Assembly: GCA_903891325.1 (NCBI GenBank)
Contig: CAITEC010000032.1
Coordinates: 1 to 41,305, forward strand
Direction: 5' to 3'
Source of the DNA: an uncultured Opitutaceae bacterium
GTDB lineage: Bacteria; Verrucomicrobiota; Verrucomicrobiia; Opitutales; Opitutaceae
DNA length: 41,305 nt
Within the stretch, counting starts at the first letter, position 1, and every line of letters starts with the position of its first letter. The translations under genes and the position numbers were made by a program. Shown piece after piece: positions 14,298-28,955 of this stretch. Under the pieces are notes generated by a model, which was not told where the DNA came from, did not search any database, and saw nothing but the letters and a program-made list of their open reading frames with translations.

Positions 14298-15851
14298 ATG
14301 GAAGCCCAGACCAATCCCCTCATCGAGCTGCGCCACATCAGCCACGAATACGCGGCGGTGTCCCAGGAGAGCGACCTTGTCCTGAGCGAGATCAACCTGT
14401 CGGTAAACGAGTATGACGCCGTCGCGCTGCTGGGACCCTCCGGCTGCGGCAAGTCGACCCTGCTGCGAATCATGGCCGGGCTGATCACCCCGACGAAGGG
14501 CGAGGTCTACAACAAGGGAATGCGGCTGTGCGGGGTATCGCCCGGCGTGTCCATGGTCTTCCAGAATTTCGCCCTGTTCCCGTGGCTGACCGTCCGGGGC
14601 AATGTGCTCCTGCCCGTCGGCACGCTCCCGGCCGCCGAGCAGCAGGCCCGCCTGGAGAAGGTGCTCGGGACGGTGGGCCTCGGCGCCTACGAGTACGCAT
14701 TCCCCCGGGAGCTCTCCGGCGGGATGAAGCAGCGCGTGGGGATTGCCCGCGCGCTGATCGCCGAACCGGAGGTGCTGGCGATGGACGAGCCCTTCAGCGC
14801 GCTCGACGTCCTGACCGCCGAGACGCTCCGCGGTGAAATCGGCCGGCTGGTGGCCGACCCGAATCACCCCCTTCGGACGATGGTCTTTGTCACGCACAAC
14901 ATCACGGAGGCGGTTTTTCTCGCCACCCGGATCGTGGTGATGGCGACCCAGCCGGGGCGGGTCGAGGTCGTGGTGACAAACAATCTTCCCTATCCGCGCG
15001 ACACCGACGCCCCGGAGTTCAAGCAGATGGTGGAGCGCCTGCACAGCATCCTCACGCACACGATCCTGCCCGACACCTCGCACCCCGCGCAGGACAAGGT
15101 CGTCACGAAGATCGACGATTTCCACCGCCGGATCGCCCCGGTGGCCCTTCCCTACGTGACGCCCGCGGAGGTCCTCGGCCTCATGGCCCTCCTCGGCGAC
15201 GAACCCACGGACGTGTTCGCGCTCGCGGAGCGCTTTGGCAAGGAGTTCGGCTCGGTGGTGAACGTCGTCAAGGCCGCCGAGATGCTGGAGTTCGTCCGAA
15301 CTCCCGAGCACGACGTGCTCTTCACCCCGCTGGGCCGGGAGCTGGTGGGCGCCTCGACCGCCGGCCAGAAGAAGCTGGTCCGCGACCAGCTCCTCAAGCT
15401 GAAGATCTTCGAGCTCCTCATCCGGCTGATCAAGGTCCAGGAGCAGCACGTCCTGAGCGCGGAGGAGATGCTTCGGGAGCTCCAGGTCGCCCTGCCCCAT
15501 GAGAAGCCCCGGCCGCTCTTCCGGACGCTCCTGAGCTGGGGACGGTACGCCGAGATCATCAGTTACGACCAGCGCCGGCACATCGTGCGGCTTTACGAGA
15601 GCCGCGGGGCGGCGAGGGCGAGGGCAAAGCCCGGGGCGCCGGACGGGCCGGGCGCACATTCGCCGGCGGACCCCGCCGCGCATACGCCGGCCGAACCGGT
15701 CGTGCAGTCCCCGGCGGAGCCGGCCGCGAATCTCCCGGGAGGACCCGTGGCGCCCGCGCAGCCTGCGGTGCCCCCGGTGCCGGCGGTGCCGCCGGTCGCC
15801 GCGCAGGCGGCGCAGCCACCCGCGGGTCCCCCGGCGCAGCCGGGGGCATAG
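14298..15851 (+). CDS. NitT/TauT-type ABC transporter ATPase with C-terminal extension
   Basis: This 517-residue ATPase is paired with the double permease. It has Walker [10 protein letters not shown] at 46-54, Q-loop VFQNFALFP, signature LSGGMKQR at about 139-146, Walker B VLAMDEPFSALD at 159-170, and switch VFVTHNITEAV. After the ATPase (to about 265) comes a winged-helix-like region (about 280-430), resembling the AAA-associated C-terminal domain found on some nitrate/sulfonate-type ATPases. The last 75 or so residues are almost only Pro, Ala, Gly and Val and are probably disordered. The TAG stop lies within a 9-bp repeat array. No substrate-binding protein is encoded next to it, so the ligand cannot be named. 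Confidence 0.87.
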   Translation: MEAQTNPLIELRHISHEYAAVSQESDLVLSEINLSVNEYDAVALLGPSGCGKSTLLRIMAGLITPTKGEVYNKGMRLCGVSPGVSMVFQNFALFPWLTVRGNVLLPVGTLPAAEQQARLEKVLGTVGLGAYEYAFPRELSGGMKQRVGIARALIAEPEVLAMDEPFSALDVLTAETLRGEIGRLVADPNHPLRTMVFVTHNITEAVFLATRIVVMATQPGRVEVVVTNNLPYPRDTDAPEFKQMVERLHSILTHTILPDTSHPAQDKVVTKIDDFHRRIAPVALPYVTPAEVLGLMALLGDEPTDVFALAERFGKEFGSVVNVVKAAEMLEFVRTPEHDVLFTPLGRELVGASTAGQKKLVRDQLLKLKIFELLIRLIKVQEQHVLSAEEMLRELQVALPHEKPRPLFRTLLSWGRYAEIISYDQRRHIVRLYESRGAARARAKPGAPDGPGAHSPADPAAHTPAEPVVQSPAEPAANLPGGPVAPAQPAVPPVPAVPPVAAQAAQPPAGPPAQPGA

Positions 15852-15883
15852 GACCTATACGACCTATAGTTCCTATAGGGCCT
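15848..15883. repeat. Tandem array of a 9-bp palindromic unit (4 copies)
   Basis: The block reads ATAGGACCT, ATACGACCT, ATAGTTCCT, ATAGGGCCT, four 9-bp units of consensus ATAGGNCCT. The unit joins into the palindrome CCTATAGG, so the block can pair with itself. It sits in the convergent junction between the ABC ATPase and the phosphoesterase genes. TAG at 15849-15851 is the stop of the first, and the complement of 15873-15875 is the TAG stop of the second. A relative with five copies occurs at 18083-18130. Confidence 0.8.
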
Positions 15884-16661
15884 CCGCCATCTCCGGCTCC
15901 TCAACCAGCGGAAACTCCCTCGCAAAGCTCACATAGTCGACCAGCTCGTACCGCCCATCCCAGTGCTCGACAATGGCAGTCAGCGACTCCACCCAGTCGC
16001 CCGAGTTGAGGTAGTGGATACCTCCGATTATCTTGTCGGCCGGGGTGTGGATGTGCCCGCAGAGGACTCCCACGCAGCCGCGCTCGCGGGCCAGGCGCGC
16101 GACGTGCCCCTCGAAATTCGACACATGGCTCACGGCCTCCTTCACGCGCGCCTTGATCGCCTTGCTGAGCGACCAATACTCGAGCCCGCGCCAGGCCCTC
16201 CAGGCGTTGTAGGCGCGGTTGATCTTGAGCAGCAGGCCGTATCCCCAGTCCCCAAGGTGCGAAAGGAAGACGAAATTCTTCGTGATCGTGTCGAACACGT
16301 CGCCATGAAGCACCAGGTAGCGCCCTCCCGGGCCCGTGTGGATGAATTCCTCGACTACCCTCAGCCGCTCGAAGTCCAGCGGCAGGAACCGGGAGAGGAC
16401 ATCGTCGTGGTTGCCCCGGAGATAGATCACCTCGGTGTCCCTTTTCTCGAGCATCTTCAGTACGATCCGGACGAAGCGGGTGTGGGCTTTCGTCCACTGG
16501 CCCCGCCGCCGGAGCTGCCATCCGTCGATGATGTCGCCGTTCAGGATGAGCCGGTCGCAGCGCACGTGCCGGAGGAAGTGGTTGACCTCCGCGGCCTTGC
16601 TGCCCGGCGTGCCGAGGTGCACGTCGGAGAGGATCACGGTACGCACGCGCAGTTTTTTCAT
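15873..16661 (-). CDS. LpxH-like metallophosphoesterase (UDP-2,3-diacylglucosamine diphosphatase family)
   Basis: This 262-residue calcineurin-type phosphoesterase has the full metal-site set: Asp13 and His15 in LSDVHLG, Asp43 in NGDIIDGW, Asn84 and His85 in RGNHDD, a histidine in LVLHGDVFD, and GHIHTPAD near 200. Spacing and the NGDIIDGWQL signature match the LpxH-like group, which cleaves UDP-2,3-diacylglucosamine in lipid A synthesis. Many close relatives outside proteobacteria have unproven activity. The neighbours downstream of its window position, a lipid-type glycosyltransferase and WaaA on the same strand, support an envelope role. The last codons, CTA TAG, lie in the 9-bp repeat. The conserved GNHD and GHxH histidines are intact. 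Confidence 0.8.
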   Translation of the reverse strand: MKKLRVRTVILSDVHLGTPGSKAAEVNHFLRHVRCDRLILNGDIIDGWQLRRRGQWTKAHTRFVRIVLKMLEKRDTEVIYLRGNHDDVLSRFLPLDFERLRVVEEFIHTGPGGRYLVLHGDVFDTITKNFVFLSHLGDWGYGLLLKINRAYNAWRAWRGLEYWSLSKAIKARVKEAVSHVSNFEGHVARLARERGCVGVLCGHIHTPADKIIGGIHYLNSGDWVESLTAIVEHWDGRYELVDYVSFAREFPLVEEPEMAEAL

Positions 16662-16834
16662 GGGGATATCCGACGTTCGTTGTTGGGTTCGGGCTTGGCA
16701 GGGCTACGCAATCGGCGGCCCCGCGCGCTCGTCTGCTTCGGTGGAAACCCTGCTGGGGCGGGATGCCGGGACCGGGATGAGTGGATCGTCCTTCACTTTC
16801 CCCCGGCGCCCCGCAGGAATCGGCGATGAACCCT

Positions 16835-18010
16835 TCATGGCTGCAGGGCCGCCTCGGTCGCGGGCATCGGCTGGGATTCGCCGGCGACCGCGAGGAGGCG
16901 GGTCGCGATGGTTCGCGCCGCCCCGGGATGAGCGAGGCCGGCGACGCCCGAGCGCCACGCCCGCAGGACTGCGCCCTCGTTCGCAAAGCAGCGGCGGAGA
17001 GCGCCGGCCACTTCCCCGGGCGTGGTTGCCAGCAGGCCTGCGGAGTGCCGCCGCATCAGCTCGTAGTTGCCCTCCTCCTGGCCGGGGACCACCTGGGTTA
17101 CGATCATCGGGCAGCCCGCGGCGATCGCCTCCTGGGTTGTGGCGCCGCCCGCCTTGCTGACAACCACGTGGTGGGTCATCATCAGCCTGGGCATCTCGCG
17201 GGTCCATCCGAGGATTGTGGCGGGATTTCGGCGGAGATCCGCCACGGCCTGCAGCTCCCGCCGCAGCCCGTCATCCCGGCCGACCGCGCAGGTCACCTCC
17301 CAGGTGTCCTCGACGAGAAGCTTGCGCGCGATGGAAGCCGCCGCCCGGCTGCCGGAGTTGACGATCACGAGCACCCGCGCCCTGCCGGCGGCGGCGATAT
17401 CGGGAGGGCTGTCACCCGGGCTGCGGTTGTTGAAGACTGGATCGACCGGAAATCCGGACACGCAGAGCCGGGATGCATCGACCCCGGCCGCGCGCATCAC
17501 GGAGGCGGTGTCCTCGTTTGGCACAAACCAGCCGGAACATCCGGCGCGCCACCAAAGGGAGTTGATGCTGATCGAGTCGGTCACGACATTGAAGTGGGGC
17601 ACGTCGACCAGCGACTCCCGCCGCAGCTTCTCGACGAGGAATGCGTAGACCGGATAGGTGCTGCAGATGACGCCCGGCCCATCCTCGCGGACCAACTGGG
17701 CGAGCTTGCGGAGGTCGCGGCCCAGCCAGGAGAAGGTGCGGGGGAGGAGCGTGGAGCGGTCCATCCACGCATAGGCGCGGCTCCAGAACCGGGGCATCCC
17801 GTTGATGACCGTGAGGTAGGCCTGCCGCGAGATCTCGTTGAGGCGCGGGGATGTCAGGGCAAACAGATCCGCAAGCGTGGCCGTGCCGGGTCCCTGGATC
17901 TCGTCACAGGCCGCCACAACGGCGCGTGCCGCCGCGTTGTGCCCTTCGCCGAACCCGGCGGTGAGAACCAGGACCTTGGGGCGCGATGACGGGGTGGGTC
18001 GGGAGGGCAC
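16835..18010 (-). CDS. MGDG-synthase-like glycosyltransferase
   Basis: This 391-residue GT-B glycosyltransferase resembles monogalactosyldiacylglycerol synthases and processive diacylglycerol glucosyltransferases. The N-terminal domain starts KVLVLTAGFGEGHNAAARAV, the characteristic acceptor-side loop, and continues with ICSTYPVYAFLVEKL and FNVVTDSISINSLWW. The C-terminal nucleotide-sugar domain shows VLVIVNSGSRAAASIA, TILGWTREMPRLM and VSKAGGATTQEAIAAGCPMIV, the last matching the donor-binding GGxTxxE pattern. It would transfer a sugar to a membrane lipid; which sugar and lipid is not visible. The start is a GTG at 18010. It lies between the LpxH-like gene (173-nt gap) and waaA on the same strand. 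Confidence 0.82.
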   Translation of the reverse strand: MPSRPTPSSRPKVLVLTAGFGEGHNAAARAVVAACDEIQGPGTATLADLFALTSPRLNEISRQAYLTVINGMPRFWSRAYAWMDRSTLLPRTFSWLGRDLRKLAQLVREDGPGVICSTYPVYAFLVEKLRRESLVDVPHFNVVTDSISINSLWWRAGCSGWFVPNEDTASVMRAAGVDASRLCVSGFPVDPVFNNRSPGDSPPDIAAAGRARVLVIVNSGSRAAASIARKLLVEDTWEVTCAVGRDDGLRRELQAVADLRRNPATILGWTREMPRLMMTHHVVVSKAGGATTQEAIAAGCPMIVTQVVPGQEEGNYELMRRHSAGLLATTPGEVAGALRRCFANEGAVLRAWRSGVAGLAHPGAARTIATRLLAVAGESQPMPATEAALQP

Positions 18011-18082
18011 GCGGCGGATAGTGGGCGCAAACTGTCACGGGAGGATGGCCGCGGGGTCACGATTGGGTGAAGTCTGGGGCCC

Positions 18083-18130
18083 GTAGGTCCTATAGGACCT
18101 ATAGGTCGTATAGGGCCTATTGGTCCTATA
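18083..18130. repeat. Tandem array of a 9-bp palindromic unit (5 copies)
   Basis: Five units run from 18083: GTAGGTCCT, ATAGGACCT, ATAGGTCGT, ATAGGGCCT, ATTGGTCCT, then ATA. The consensus is the same ATAGGNCCT as at 15848-15883. The waaA stop codon, TAG on the minus strand (18126-18128), falls within the last unit. The array lies between waaA and the glycosyltransferase gene, both on the minus strand, so a waaA transcript would run through it. The unit is 9 bp, so a reading frame through it stays open and gives tripeptide repeats. These create false ORFs on both strands. Confidence 0.8.
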
Positions 18131-19409
18131 TCACCCCGGCCAGCTCCTCGCGGATCACCGCCAGCGTTCGCTCGAGGGCCCCGGCGTTGCGTTTCCGCCA
18201 GGCGGCCGCGGCGGCCGCCAGCGCCTCGCGGCGGCTGGCGTCGCGAAGGAGCTGCGGCGCCTCGACGGCGAGGGCCGCGGCGTCGGCAACCTCCCACGCG
18301 GCGCCCATGGCGCGCAATTCGCGGGAGATCGCCCTGAAATTCCCCATGCCCGGACCCATCATCAGCGGCTTGCCCAGGGCCGCCGCCTCCACCGGCGTCT
18401 GCCCCTCCGTGTGCGGCGGAAGGCTCTTCCCGACAAAGACCAGGTCGGCTAGCTGCGTCAGGTCGCGGAGTTCGCCGGTGGTGTCGCCCACGGCCACGTC
18501 CACCTCCGACGGCGCGACCCCGCGCGATCTGAAATGATAGCTCAGGCCCGTCGCCCTTAGCATCTGCTCGATCTCGAAGCGGCGCTCGGCGTGGCGGGGC
18601 ACGATGAGCAGGACGCAGCGAAGCCCGCCGGCCCGCGCGGCCTTGAGCGCCTCCACCAATGCCTCCTCCTCGCCCTTCCAGGTCGACGACCCGAGGAGGA
18701 CAAGCGCCGGCGGAAGCCCCAGCTCCCCGCGAAGCCGCGCCAGCGCGGCATCGTCGAGCCGCGGGATGGACACGTCGACCTTGATGTTCCCGGTCGTCGT
18801 CATGCGGGATGCCGGGACGCCAAGCCGCAGGAAGCGCGCCTCGTCCTGGGCGGAGCACGGAAGCAGCCGGCCAATGTTCGACAGGGCCAGGCGCGCGGCC
18901 GGCGGGAAAAGCTTCATCCGGGAAAAGCTCCGGTCGGAAACCCGCGCGTTGATGCAAAGGACCGGAACCCCCCTCACCCGGGCCTGGCGGGTGTGCTCGG
19001 GCCAGCGCTCGCCCTCCATCAGGACCACCAGGTCAGGCTTGATCCGGCGCCAGGCGCGCGCAGAGAAGGGCCACCAGTCGATCGGAAAATAGCCGATTCC
19101 CATGGCCACCCCGCGGTAGCGGTCGTTGGCCAGGCGATAGCCCGTGCTCGTCGTGGTCGTCAGGTAGACCTCCATCCCCTCACGCACAAGCGACTGCAGC
19201 AGGGGCGCAATCGCGAGCATCTCGCCGACGCTGACGGCCTGCAGCCAGATGCGCCGGATGCCGGGGGTCGGCCGCGCCAGCTCGGGATGATTCCCGAGAC
19301 GCTGCCCGAAATTCCGGGCATAATCGCCCCTGCGGCGCATGCGCCGCAGCTGGGCGGGGGCCATCACCGCCAGGGCGGGCAGGAACAGCAGGCGGTAAAG
19401 CCAAATCAT
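18126..19409 (-). CDS. waaA: 3-deoxy-D-manno-octulosonic acid transferase WaaA/KdtA
   Basis: This 427-residue enzyme adds Kdo to the lipid A precursor at the inner membrane. The N-terminus is a hydrophobic anchor (2-18) followed by basic residues. The N-terminal GT domain holds the catalytic Glu63 in IWLQAVSVGEMLA, then TTTTSTGYRLA and FPIDWWPFSARAW. The C-terminal domain has LLGSSTWKGEEEALVEAL, LLIVPRHAERRFEIEQML, VDVAVGDTTGELRDL and FVGKSLPPHTEGQTPVEAAALGKP. All are standard WaaA features and the length matches the family (about 425). It shows that the organism makes Kdo-containing lipopolysaccharide. The C-terminus ends in the 9-bp repeat array, where the TAG is supplied. Confidence 0.94.
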   Translation of the reverse strand: MIWLYRLLFLPALAVMAPAQLRRMRRRGDYARNFGQRLGNHPELARPTPGIRRIWLQAVSVGEMLAIAPLLQSLVREGMEVYLTTTTSTGYRLANDRYRGVAMGIGYFPIDWWPFSARAWRRIKPDLVVLMEGERWPEHTRQARVRGVPVLCINARVSDRSFSRMKLFPPAARLALSNIGRLLPCSAQDEARFLRLGVPASRMTTTGNIKVDVSIPRLDDAALARLRGELGLPPALVLLGSSTWKGEEEALVEALKAARAGGLRCVLLIVPRHAERRFEIEQMLRATGLSYHFRSRGVAPSEVDVAVGDTTGELRDLTQLADLVFVGKSLPPHTEGQTPVEAAALGKPLMMGPGMGNFRAISRELRAMGAAWEVADAAALAVEAPQLLRDASRREALAAAAAAWRKRNAGALERTLAVIREELAGVI

Positions 19410-28882: not shown

Positions 28883-28955
28883 GGTGGAGCGCGATCTCCG
28901 AGCGCGCTGAGCGACCAAAGTTCCAAACCAGCGTGCCCGGAGGTCCCGCTCCACC
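28883..28955. repeat. Long hairpin repeat (REP/MITE-like), copy 1
   Basis: A 26-bp arm at 28883-28908 begins GGTGGAGCGCGATCTCC. It is matched by its reverse complement at 28930-28955 with 22 of 26 positions paired and a 21-nt loop. The left arm is identical in all 26 positions to 41243-41268. The element occupies the DUF502-recO gap almost exactly. It creates false ORFs in reverse, which contain the string SEIALH. It may slow or end transcription between the two genes. Confidence 0.8.

Follow-up and report, generated by a model that had tools for sequence, protein, structure and literature searches.

The window locus

The window is a contig of 41,305 nucleotides (CAITEC010000032.1), one of those that make up the 3.29-Mb draft genome of an uncultured Opitutaceae bacterium (GCA_903891325.1; G000 in what follows). 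It carries two tandem arrays of a palindromic 9-bp unit next to genes for an ABC transporter ATPase, a calcineurin-like phosphoesterase, a glycosyltransferase-like protein and WaaA (Table 1). A sequence-only reading of the window had described these arrays, of four and five units, as supplying the stop codons of three genes; the arrays, their positions and all three stops are confirmed. The TAG that ends the ABC ATPase gene (15849-15851, plus strand) lies inside array 1, which also holds the stop (TAG, 15873-15875, minus strand) and the last two codons of the LpxH-like gene, and the TAG that ends waaA (18126-18128, minus strand) lies inside array 2. The further statement that three of three adjoining genes end in the repeat holds for these three TAG stops but not for a fourth gene: the MGDG_synth-like gene (minus strand) stops with a TGA at 16835, outside any repeat, and only its start side adjoins array 2. 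The exact unit ATAGGNCCT, which accounts for four of the nine units of the two arrays, has eight matches in the window (the palindrome being counted on both strands) against 0.35 expected, a count reached in none of 100 shuffles.

Table 1. Arrays and adjoining genes in the window
Feature	Position	Strand	Description
Array 1	15848-15883		Four 9-bp units: ATAGGACCT ATACGACCT ATAGTTCCT ATAGGGCCT
Array 2	18083-18130		Five units: GTAGGTCCT ATAGGACCT ATAGGTCGT ATAGGGCCT ATTGGTCCT, then ATA
ABC transporter ATPase	14298-15851	+	ABC_tran and AAA_assoc_C; Pro/Ala-rich tail; longest open reading frame from 13734
Calcineurin-like phosphoesterase (LpxH-like)	15873-16661	-	Metallophos; the label LpxH-like is that of the sequence-only reading
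MGDG_synth/glycosyltransferase-like gene	16835-18010	-	Start side 72 bp from array 2
waaA	18126-19409	-	Glycos_transf_N
lpxH-MGDG pair	15884-18082		Between the two arrays; inverted relative to relatives, neighbours A, B and C missing

Gene ends and reading frame

The window arrays belong to a family that is spread through G000. A three-unit search allowing up to 3 mismatches gives 25 and 23 matches on the two strands of the genome, and the reversed three-unit pattern gives none. The arrays, about 16 in number, are dispersed at gene junctions; they have a median length of 38 bp, usually about four units and a period of 9, with the unit core ATRRGNCYY and each unit palindromic. They differ in unit variants and unit number and are not the near-identical copies that transposition of one master element would leave (by inspection; no alignment was run). 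Seven stop codons lie inside the arrays fetched from G000, and four more precede an array by no more than 12 bp. All seven are TAG, which is unexpected (p=3e-4), because TAG ends only 28 of the 88 genes called in these stretches, the seven array stops included. No gene reads through a fetched array, according to the simple, uncurated in-house caller that provided the gene calls here, in the relatives and at all other loci. At C139b the array is flanked by two divergent starts.

Public genome contigs, scanned for two and a half perfect units, yielded 109 stretches, from Acidobacteria, Aminicenantes, Cloacimonadota, Hydrogenedentota, Planctomycetes and Verrucomicrobia, from Kiritimatiellae, Lentisphaerae, Bacteroidales, Desulfobacterales and Chloroflexota, from a Vibrio and from others; several of the genomes carry many array copies, and stretches with one short array may be matches by chance. 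The 109 loci contain 143 merged arrays. Once 30 arrays inside called genes and 14 at locus edges are left out, 99 have two called neighbours, and removal of one duplicate leaves 98 for the statistics of position. A stop lies inside the array or within 10 bp of it in 43 of the 83 arrays that have an adjoining stop; sliding the arrays within their own spacers leads one to expect 28.4 (standard deviation 3.1, maximum 42 in 5000 trials). At co-directional junctions the array is closer to the stop side in 43 of 57 cases (p=1.5e-4). Divergent junctions are depleted, with 15 of the 98 arrays in 33% of the spacer bases (p=6e-5), and convergent junctions are enriched (26 of 98, p=0.001). The suggestion that arrays favour gene ends holds, for 3' ends, in G000 and across phyla.

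On either strand, one of the three frames of the array unit contains a stop. TAG stops that lie at least 4 bases into an array number 7 in G000, 2 in stretches of the same family, 11 in the 109 loci and 8 in a phage contig that is described below; read-throughs that end within 120 bp number 0, 0, 5 and 2, respectively. Together, these 28 TAG stops and 7 read-throughs depart from the 1:2 ratio expected of the frames (p=2e-8), and the excess of stops persists (p=0.004) when the 19 arrays situated deeper inside called genes (0, 1, 17 and 1 in the same four sets) are also scored as read-throughs; these rows are not fully independent of each other, and the gene calls are uncurated. The array TAG is used as a stop codon more often than the reading frame alone predicts. 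In most cases it is the first TAG of an array that serves as the stop, and the A before it in ATAG completes the last codon as its third base, a pattern that fits better with the entry of a ready-made array than with growth of an array from an existing stop.

Gain of arrays and rearrangement

The order at the window locus of G000 is ABC(+), array 1, lpxH(-), MGDG(-), array 2, waaA(-), M16(+), and that of its relative G011 is ABC(+), gene A, MGDG(+), gene B, lpxH(+), gene C, waaA(-), M16(+). In all three relatives whose stretch includes ABC, the genes ABC, A, MGDG, B and lpxH are consecutive, MGDG and lpxH being on the strand of ABC. The order A, MGDG, B, lpxH is kept in 11 of 11 relatives, and lpxH faces waaA in two of two; gene C comes after lpxH in nine of ten, the exception being G012, in which lpxH and waaA overlap tail to tail by 35 bp. 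A search of the window and 19 stretches of G000 finds no match to gene A, B or C. G000 has the lpxH-MGDG pair in inverted orientation and lacks three neighbouring genes at this locus; the change is therefore not a clean inversion between two arrays. Homologues that read past the array positions in close relatives, an observation that the sequence-only reading would have counted against itself, do exist for the LpxH-like gene, are not found for waaA, and are replaced at the ABC gene by homologues that end earlier. The LpxH-like protein has 262 amino acids in G000 and 278-287 in all 10 relatives in which the 3' end is covered, and the 16-25 codons lost belong to a variable tail beyond the conserved part. 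WaaA has 427 residues in G000 versus 426 and 432 in two relatives; the ABC protein, whose tail is variable, has 517 versus 455, 488 and 482 in three.

Two further loci are rearranged. The genes X6-X5-X4-X3-X2 are co-oriented in 8 of 8 relatives, and G000 has X5 in the opposite orientation, with an array on its start side only; another array separates X4 from X3 (GldA-like and GldF-like, both below cut-off), which are 2-8 bp apart in the same eight relatives. At the hisF site, G000 has the block Y5-Y4-Y3, which precedes rho, in inverted orientation compared with G011 and G012, and the flank matches of 6 of 6 relatives are in agreement; a 9-bp array lies at one end of the block and an array of the heptamer TTTCAGG at the other. 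Elsewhere the array is a colinear gain: between gyrB and gyrA (6 of 6 relatives), where it fills most of a spacer that varies among relatives (L150:3109-3166); at C27a, a metal-type ABC transporter pair (6 of 6); at C59 (against one relative); and between trpB and the YicC/YloC-like gene that follows it, where the insertion is 46 bp against four and 49 bp against one of five aligned relatives, the flanks being 1.6 kb apart in G011. At five junctions besides those of the window, an array is present in G000 and absent in the relatives compared. A control stretch of 20 kb without arrays is colinear with G002 and G003 wherever matched, and with G012 apart from M16, which lies on another contig. 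The comparison covers the arrays other than C136a, C136b, C63 and those at contig ends (C27b, C89, C126 and C128).

Palindromic units at three rearranged loci raise the thought that stalled or broken DNA ends give rise to arrays when synthesis folds back or slips on the unit, so that arrays would mark past breaks and rearrangements. The centre bases in genome G016 lend this some colour, being mirror-complementary in 13 of 18 cases versus 10.0 expected. However, mirror complementarity does not exceed expectation in most other groups, five of the nine testable arrays are colinear gains, and synthesis at break ends leaves a consensus common to several phyla unexplained; we regard this origin as improbable.

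The heptamer TTTCAGG forms arrays of its own, at 62-93 of the window, L146:5515-5607 and L155:82-102. Its strand matches number 79 and 86 in G000; of 12 same-genus genomes, G006 has one and the other 11 have none, and it is a second repeat family gained by the lineage of G000.

Arrays and transcript ends

That the arrays are kept as signals for 3' processing or termination was also proposed from the sequence. Arrays selected at gene ends as bidirectional terminators, or as stabilising or processing hairpins, would account for the 3' bias and for the enrichment at convergent and depletion at divergent junctions, and the units are self-complementary. The flanks add something in the same direction: the A fraction in the 8 nt before an array is 0.283 (at least four A in 14 of 57), convergent arrays have a T fraction of 0.272 on their outer sides (52 sides), and bidirectional terminators could account for both. 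T-rich sequence follows three G016 arrays (L197-L199), so that single arrays may terminate transcription, and T-runs are also found at C59 and C136b of G000. Against this stands the weakness of the overall trend, with a T fraction of 0.246 versus 0.202 in the 8 nt after the array and at least four T in only 6 of 57, which is not the hairpin followed by a T-run of an intrinsic terminator. The real order of units folds no better than shuffled orders (mean z +0.16, 117 arrays), and some array families, such as (ATAAGTCCT)n, are not self-complementary. Arrays also lie between co-directional genes of likely operons (gyrB-gyrA, trpB-yicC, X4-X3) and between phage genes, and are absent from relatives of the same genus (12 genomes). 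Rfam covariance models give no match in window positions 15500-18500 at E up to 1. A transcript-end role is thus unlikely: the association of arrays with gene ends is real and general, and the function proposed for them is unsupported.

Distribution, conserved core and phage

The family has a patchy distribution. A two-unit search of 38 genomes of relatives finds matches in two, G000 and one other genome of the same family, and with one mismatch allowed detects no array in 12 genomes of the same genus; a three-unit search of a sample of the phylum finds matches in 23 of 387 genomes and 15 of 198 genera, G000 counted in. The 9-bp family thus appears, from this comparison, to have entered the lineage of G000 after its split from the same-genus genomes examined. 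Other 9-bp units are also tandem in some array-bearing loci, among them AAAGGACAC and GGAGTTAAA at L068 and L118 (Kiritimatiellae) and L042 (Prevotella). In the Aminicenantes genome CS4-C025 arrays are called inside long open reading frames (L036, L037, L051, L052, L071, L077, L079, L095, L102, L111, L120 and L123), some of these loci carrying a second unit, AAGGTGAGT. The acidobacterial Centralia_MAG_134 (L032, L035, L083 and others) has inverted array pairs, a GGACC arm and a GGTCC arm around a short loop, which could form large hairpins.

Across 12 sets of arrays, one of them from phage, A1, T2, G5 and C7 of the unit are each at least 91% conserved in nine. Aminicenantes (79%), Hydrogenedentota (86%) and bin.378 (81%) are lower at one or more of these core positions. 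Positions 3, 4, 6, 8 and 9 vary more in most sets, not in all: positions 3 and 9 roughly equal the core in conservation in Aminicenantes, Cloacimonadota and Puniceicoccales. The scan is biased towards the consensus and so raises the overall level of conservation, but the contrast among positions 1, 5, 7 and 9 is not made by the scan, because it penalises them equally. A sequence-specific protein that recognises A1 T2.. G5. C7, with the arrays serving as functional binding arrays at gene ends, would explain why the core is held at this level in nine sets while the equally penalised position 9 mostly varies more. The three sets with a lower core, the three in which positions 3 and 9 match it, the scan's own preference for the consensus, the patchy presence of arrays within genus and family and the fact that no linked gene was found make this explanation quite unlikely.

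G000 has six RAYT-like Y1 transposase genes (C110, C23, C88, C62, C87 and C69); five of seven same-genus relatives searched have none, and G018, which has no three-unit match, has 13. RAYT as the mover of the arrays was rejected, since RAYT-like genes also occur in array-free genomes and none of the six G000 stretches has an array. A REP-like GC-rich palindrome, GCGCGATCTCCGAGCGCGC, is found at 28889 and 41249 of the window, L155:20 and 10551, and L228:3234; several copies are near contig ends, and that of L228 directly follows a RAYT-like gene.

The family is also found on a virus. The 34-kb IMG/VR contig IMGVR_UViG_3300035660_000048 (L221, L234 and L235) carries 18 arrays, mostly at gene junctions, and its PHROGs matches (transposase, DNA transposition protein, terminase, portal, head protease and major head protein) identify it as a Mu-like phage. 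TAG stops are supplied by eight of its arrays, and an ATG start falls within or directly beside five; reading frames continue through two arrays close to a gene end, and the portal gene contains one array in frame. Of the nine viral-contig stretches first matched, five (L218, L220, L222, L225 and L226) look like collagen-type coding repeats and were set aside. A looser scan gives 36 stretches, 35 of them new; 25 of the 35 have in-gene arrays and 10 have at least one array outside called genes, one of these (L259) being on the same Mu-like phage contig. Named phages and plasmids give no match to the 56-bp stretch of array 2, in a search whose low-complexity filter may hide such repeats.

Comparison with known short repeats

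The STRR heptamers of cyanobacteria are intergenic short tandem repeats with a period of 7. The arrays described here share the character of dispersed repeats with units of 6-9 bp, being tandem, placed at gene junctions throughout the genome and patchy, with none found in relatives; with a period of 9 and the unit ATRRGNCYY, they do not have the seven-base unit of STRR, TAACTGA or GGGNATC repeats. The commonest array edges are ATAG/TATA and CTAT, and no search was aimed at the REP tags GTAG and CGTC.

A close likeness is to the GGGNATC heptamers of Xanthomonas and Nostoc (PMC4692102). These too are dispersed tandem units of unknown function that prefer four units, favour co-directional junctions, are rare at divergent ones and lie near or over stops; they differ in being G-rich and quadruplex-forming with a period of 7, and their authors report raised stability around the repeats, whereas 9-bp arrays lie at three rearranged loci. 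The TAACTGA direct repeats of Beggiatoaceae, Cyanobacteria and Bacteroidetes resemble the arrays in their patchy presence in distant phyla and in a suspected horizontal spread with no evident mechanism, and overlap the stop of the upstream gene in 13 open reading frames (PMC4679880); these have a period of 7, forward stops in three frames and a location mostly just before starts, in contrast to stops in one frame per strand and a 3' bias. REP sequences, which are associated with RAYT transposases (PMC3733652), are likewise small extragenic palindromes for which termination and mRNA stabilisation have been hypothesised, with REPs being palindromes of 20-40 bp that mostly carry GTAG/CGTC tags, in contrast to tandem units of 9 bp. 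Overlap with stop codons is thus already known for dispersed short tandem repeats (PMC4692102, PMC4679880). To this kind of repeat the present family adds a period of 9 and a conserved core, a frame filter, a comparison with array-free relatives, loci that are rearranged and a phage that carries arrays. The exact sequences ATAGGTCCTATAGG and ATAGGACCTATAGG are absent from the open literature searched, and titles and abstracts disclose no 9-bp family, which is not proof that none has been published.

Origin and meaning of the arrays

The explanation that we hold to be somewhat probable is that the arrays are a mobile or recurrently formed family of gene-junction repeats, with the core ATRRGNCYY, that selection has filtered to harmless positions at 3' ends. 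Ready-made arrays of about 30-50 bp would enter many sites, and selection would keep those at gene ends where an in-frame TAG stops translation at once; the supply of stop codons is then a by-product of the frame filter. At the window a rearrangement would have had its breakpoints at arrays that already existed or that arose together with those breakpoints. If the two palindromic arrays recombined, the DNA between them would be inverted, but the gene loss at the locus implies more than one step. Phages may carry arrays between phyla.

Several observations weigh against this explanation. Conservation of the core exceeds what neutral decay is expected to leave, which points towards a recognition function. 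No mover was found, none of the six RAYT-like genes of G000 having a 9-mer array in its 5-kb stretch. A hand count of altered junctions gives 4 of 9 with arrays versus 3 of 22 without (p=0.15), or p=0.32 when the two window arrays are counted once; a hand count made before the gene losses were seen had given p=0.02-0.04. At p=0.15 an association of arrays with rearrangement is suggested but falls short of significance. Arrays lie at both ends of only one of the three inversions, that of the window, which is not clean, and recombination between arrays is a step that we infer rather than observe.

A bolder version, which we consider doubtful, has a transposase-free mobile repeat that crosses phyla and also rides on Mu-like phages; on entering gene junctions it would remake the stop and start of its neighbours through its in-frame TAG and, in some cases, a terminal ATG, machinery that reads the core A1 T2.. 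G5. C7 would make or move the arrays, and the arrays would promote local rearrangement. Since many phyla and a Mu-like phage carry the same 9-bp unit, the long-standing question of how short dispersed repeats travel when no transposase is known for them becomes testable. G000 offers a natural case of repeats that reach a lineage and redraw its gene ends, with array-free relatives available for comparison; the gene ends and operon breaks of array-bearing genomes may accordingly be recent rather than regulatory.

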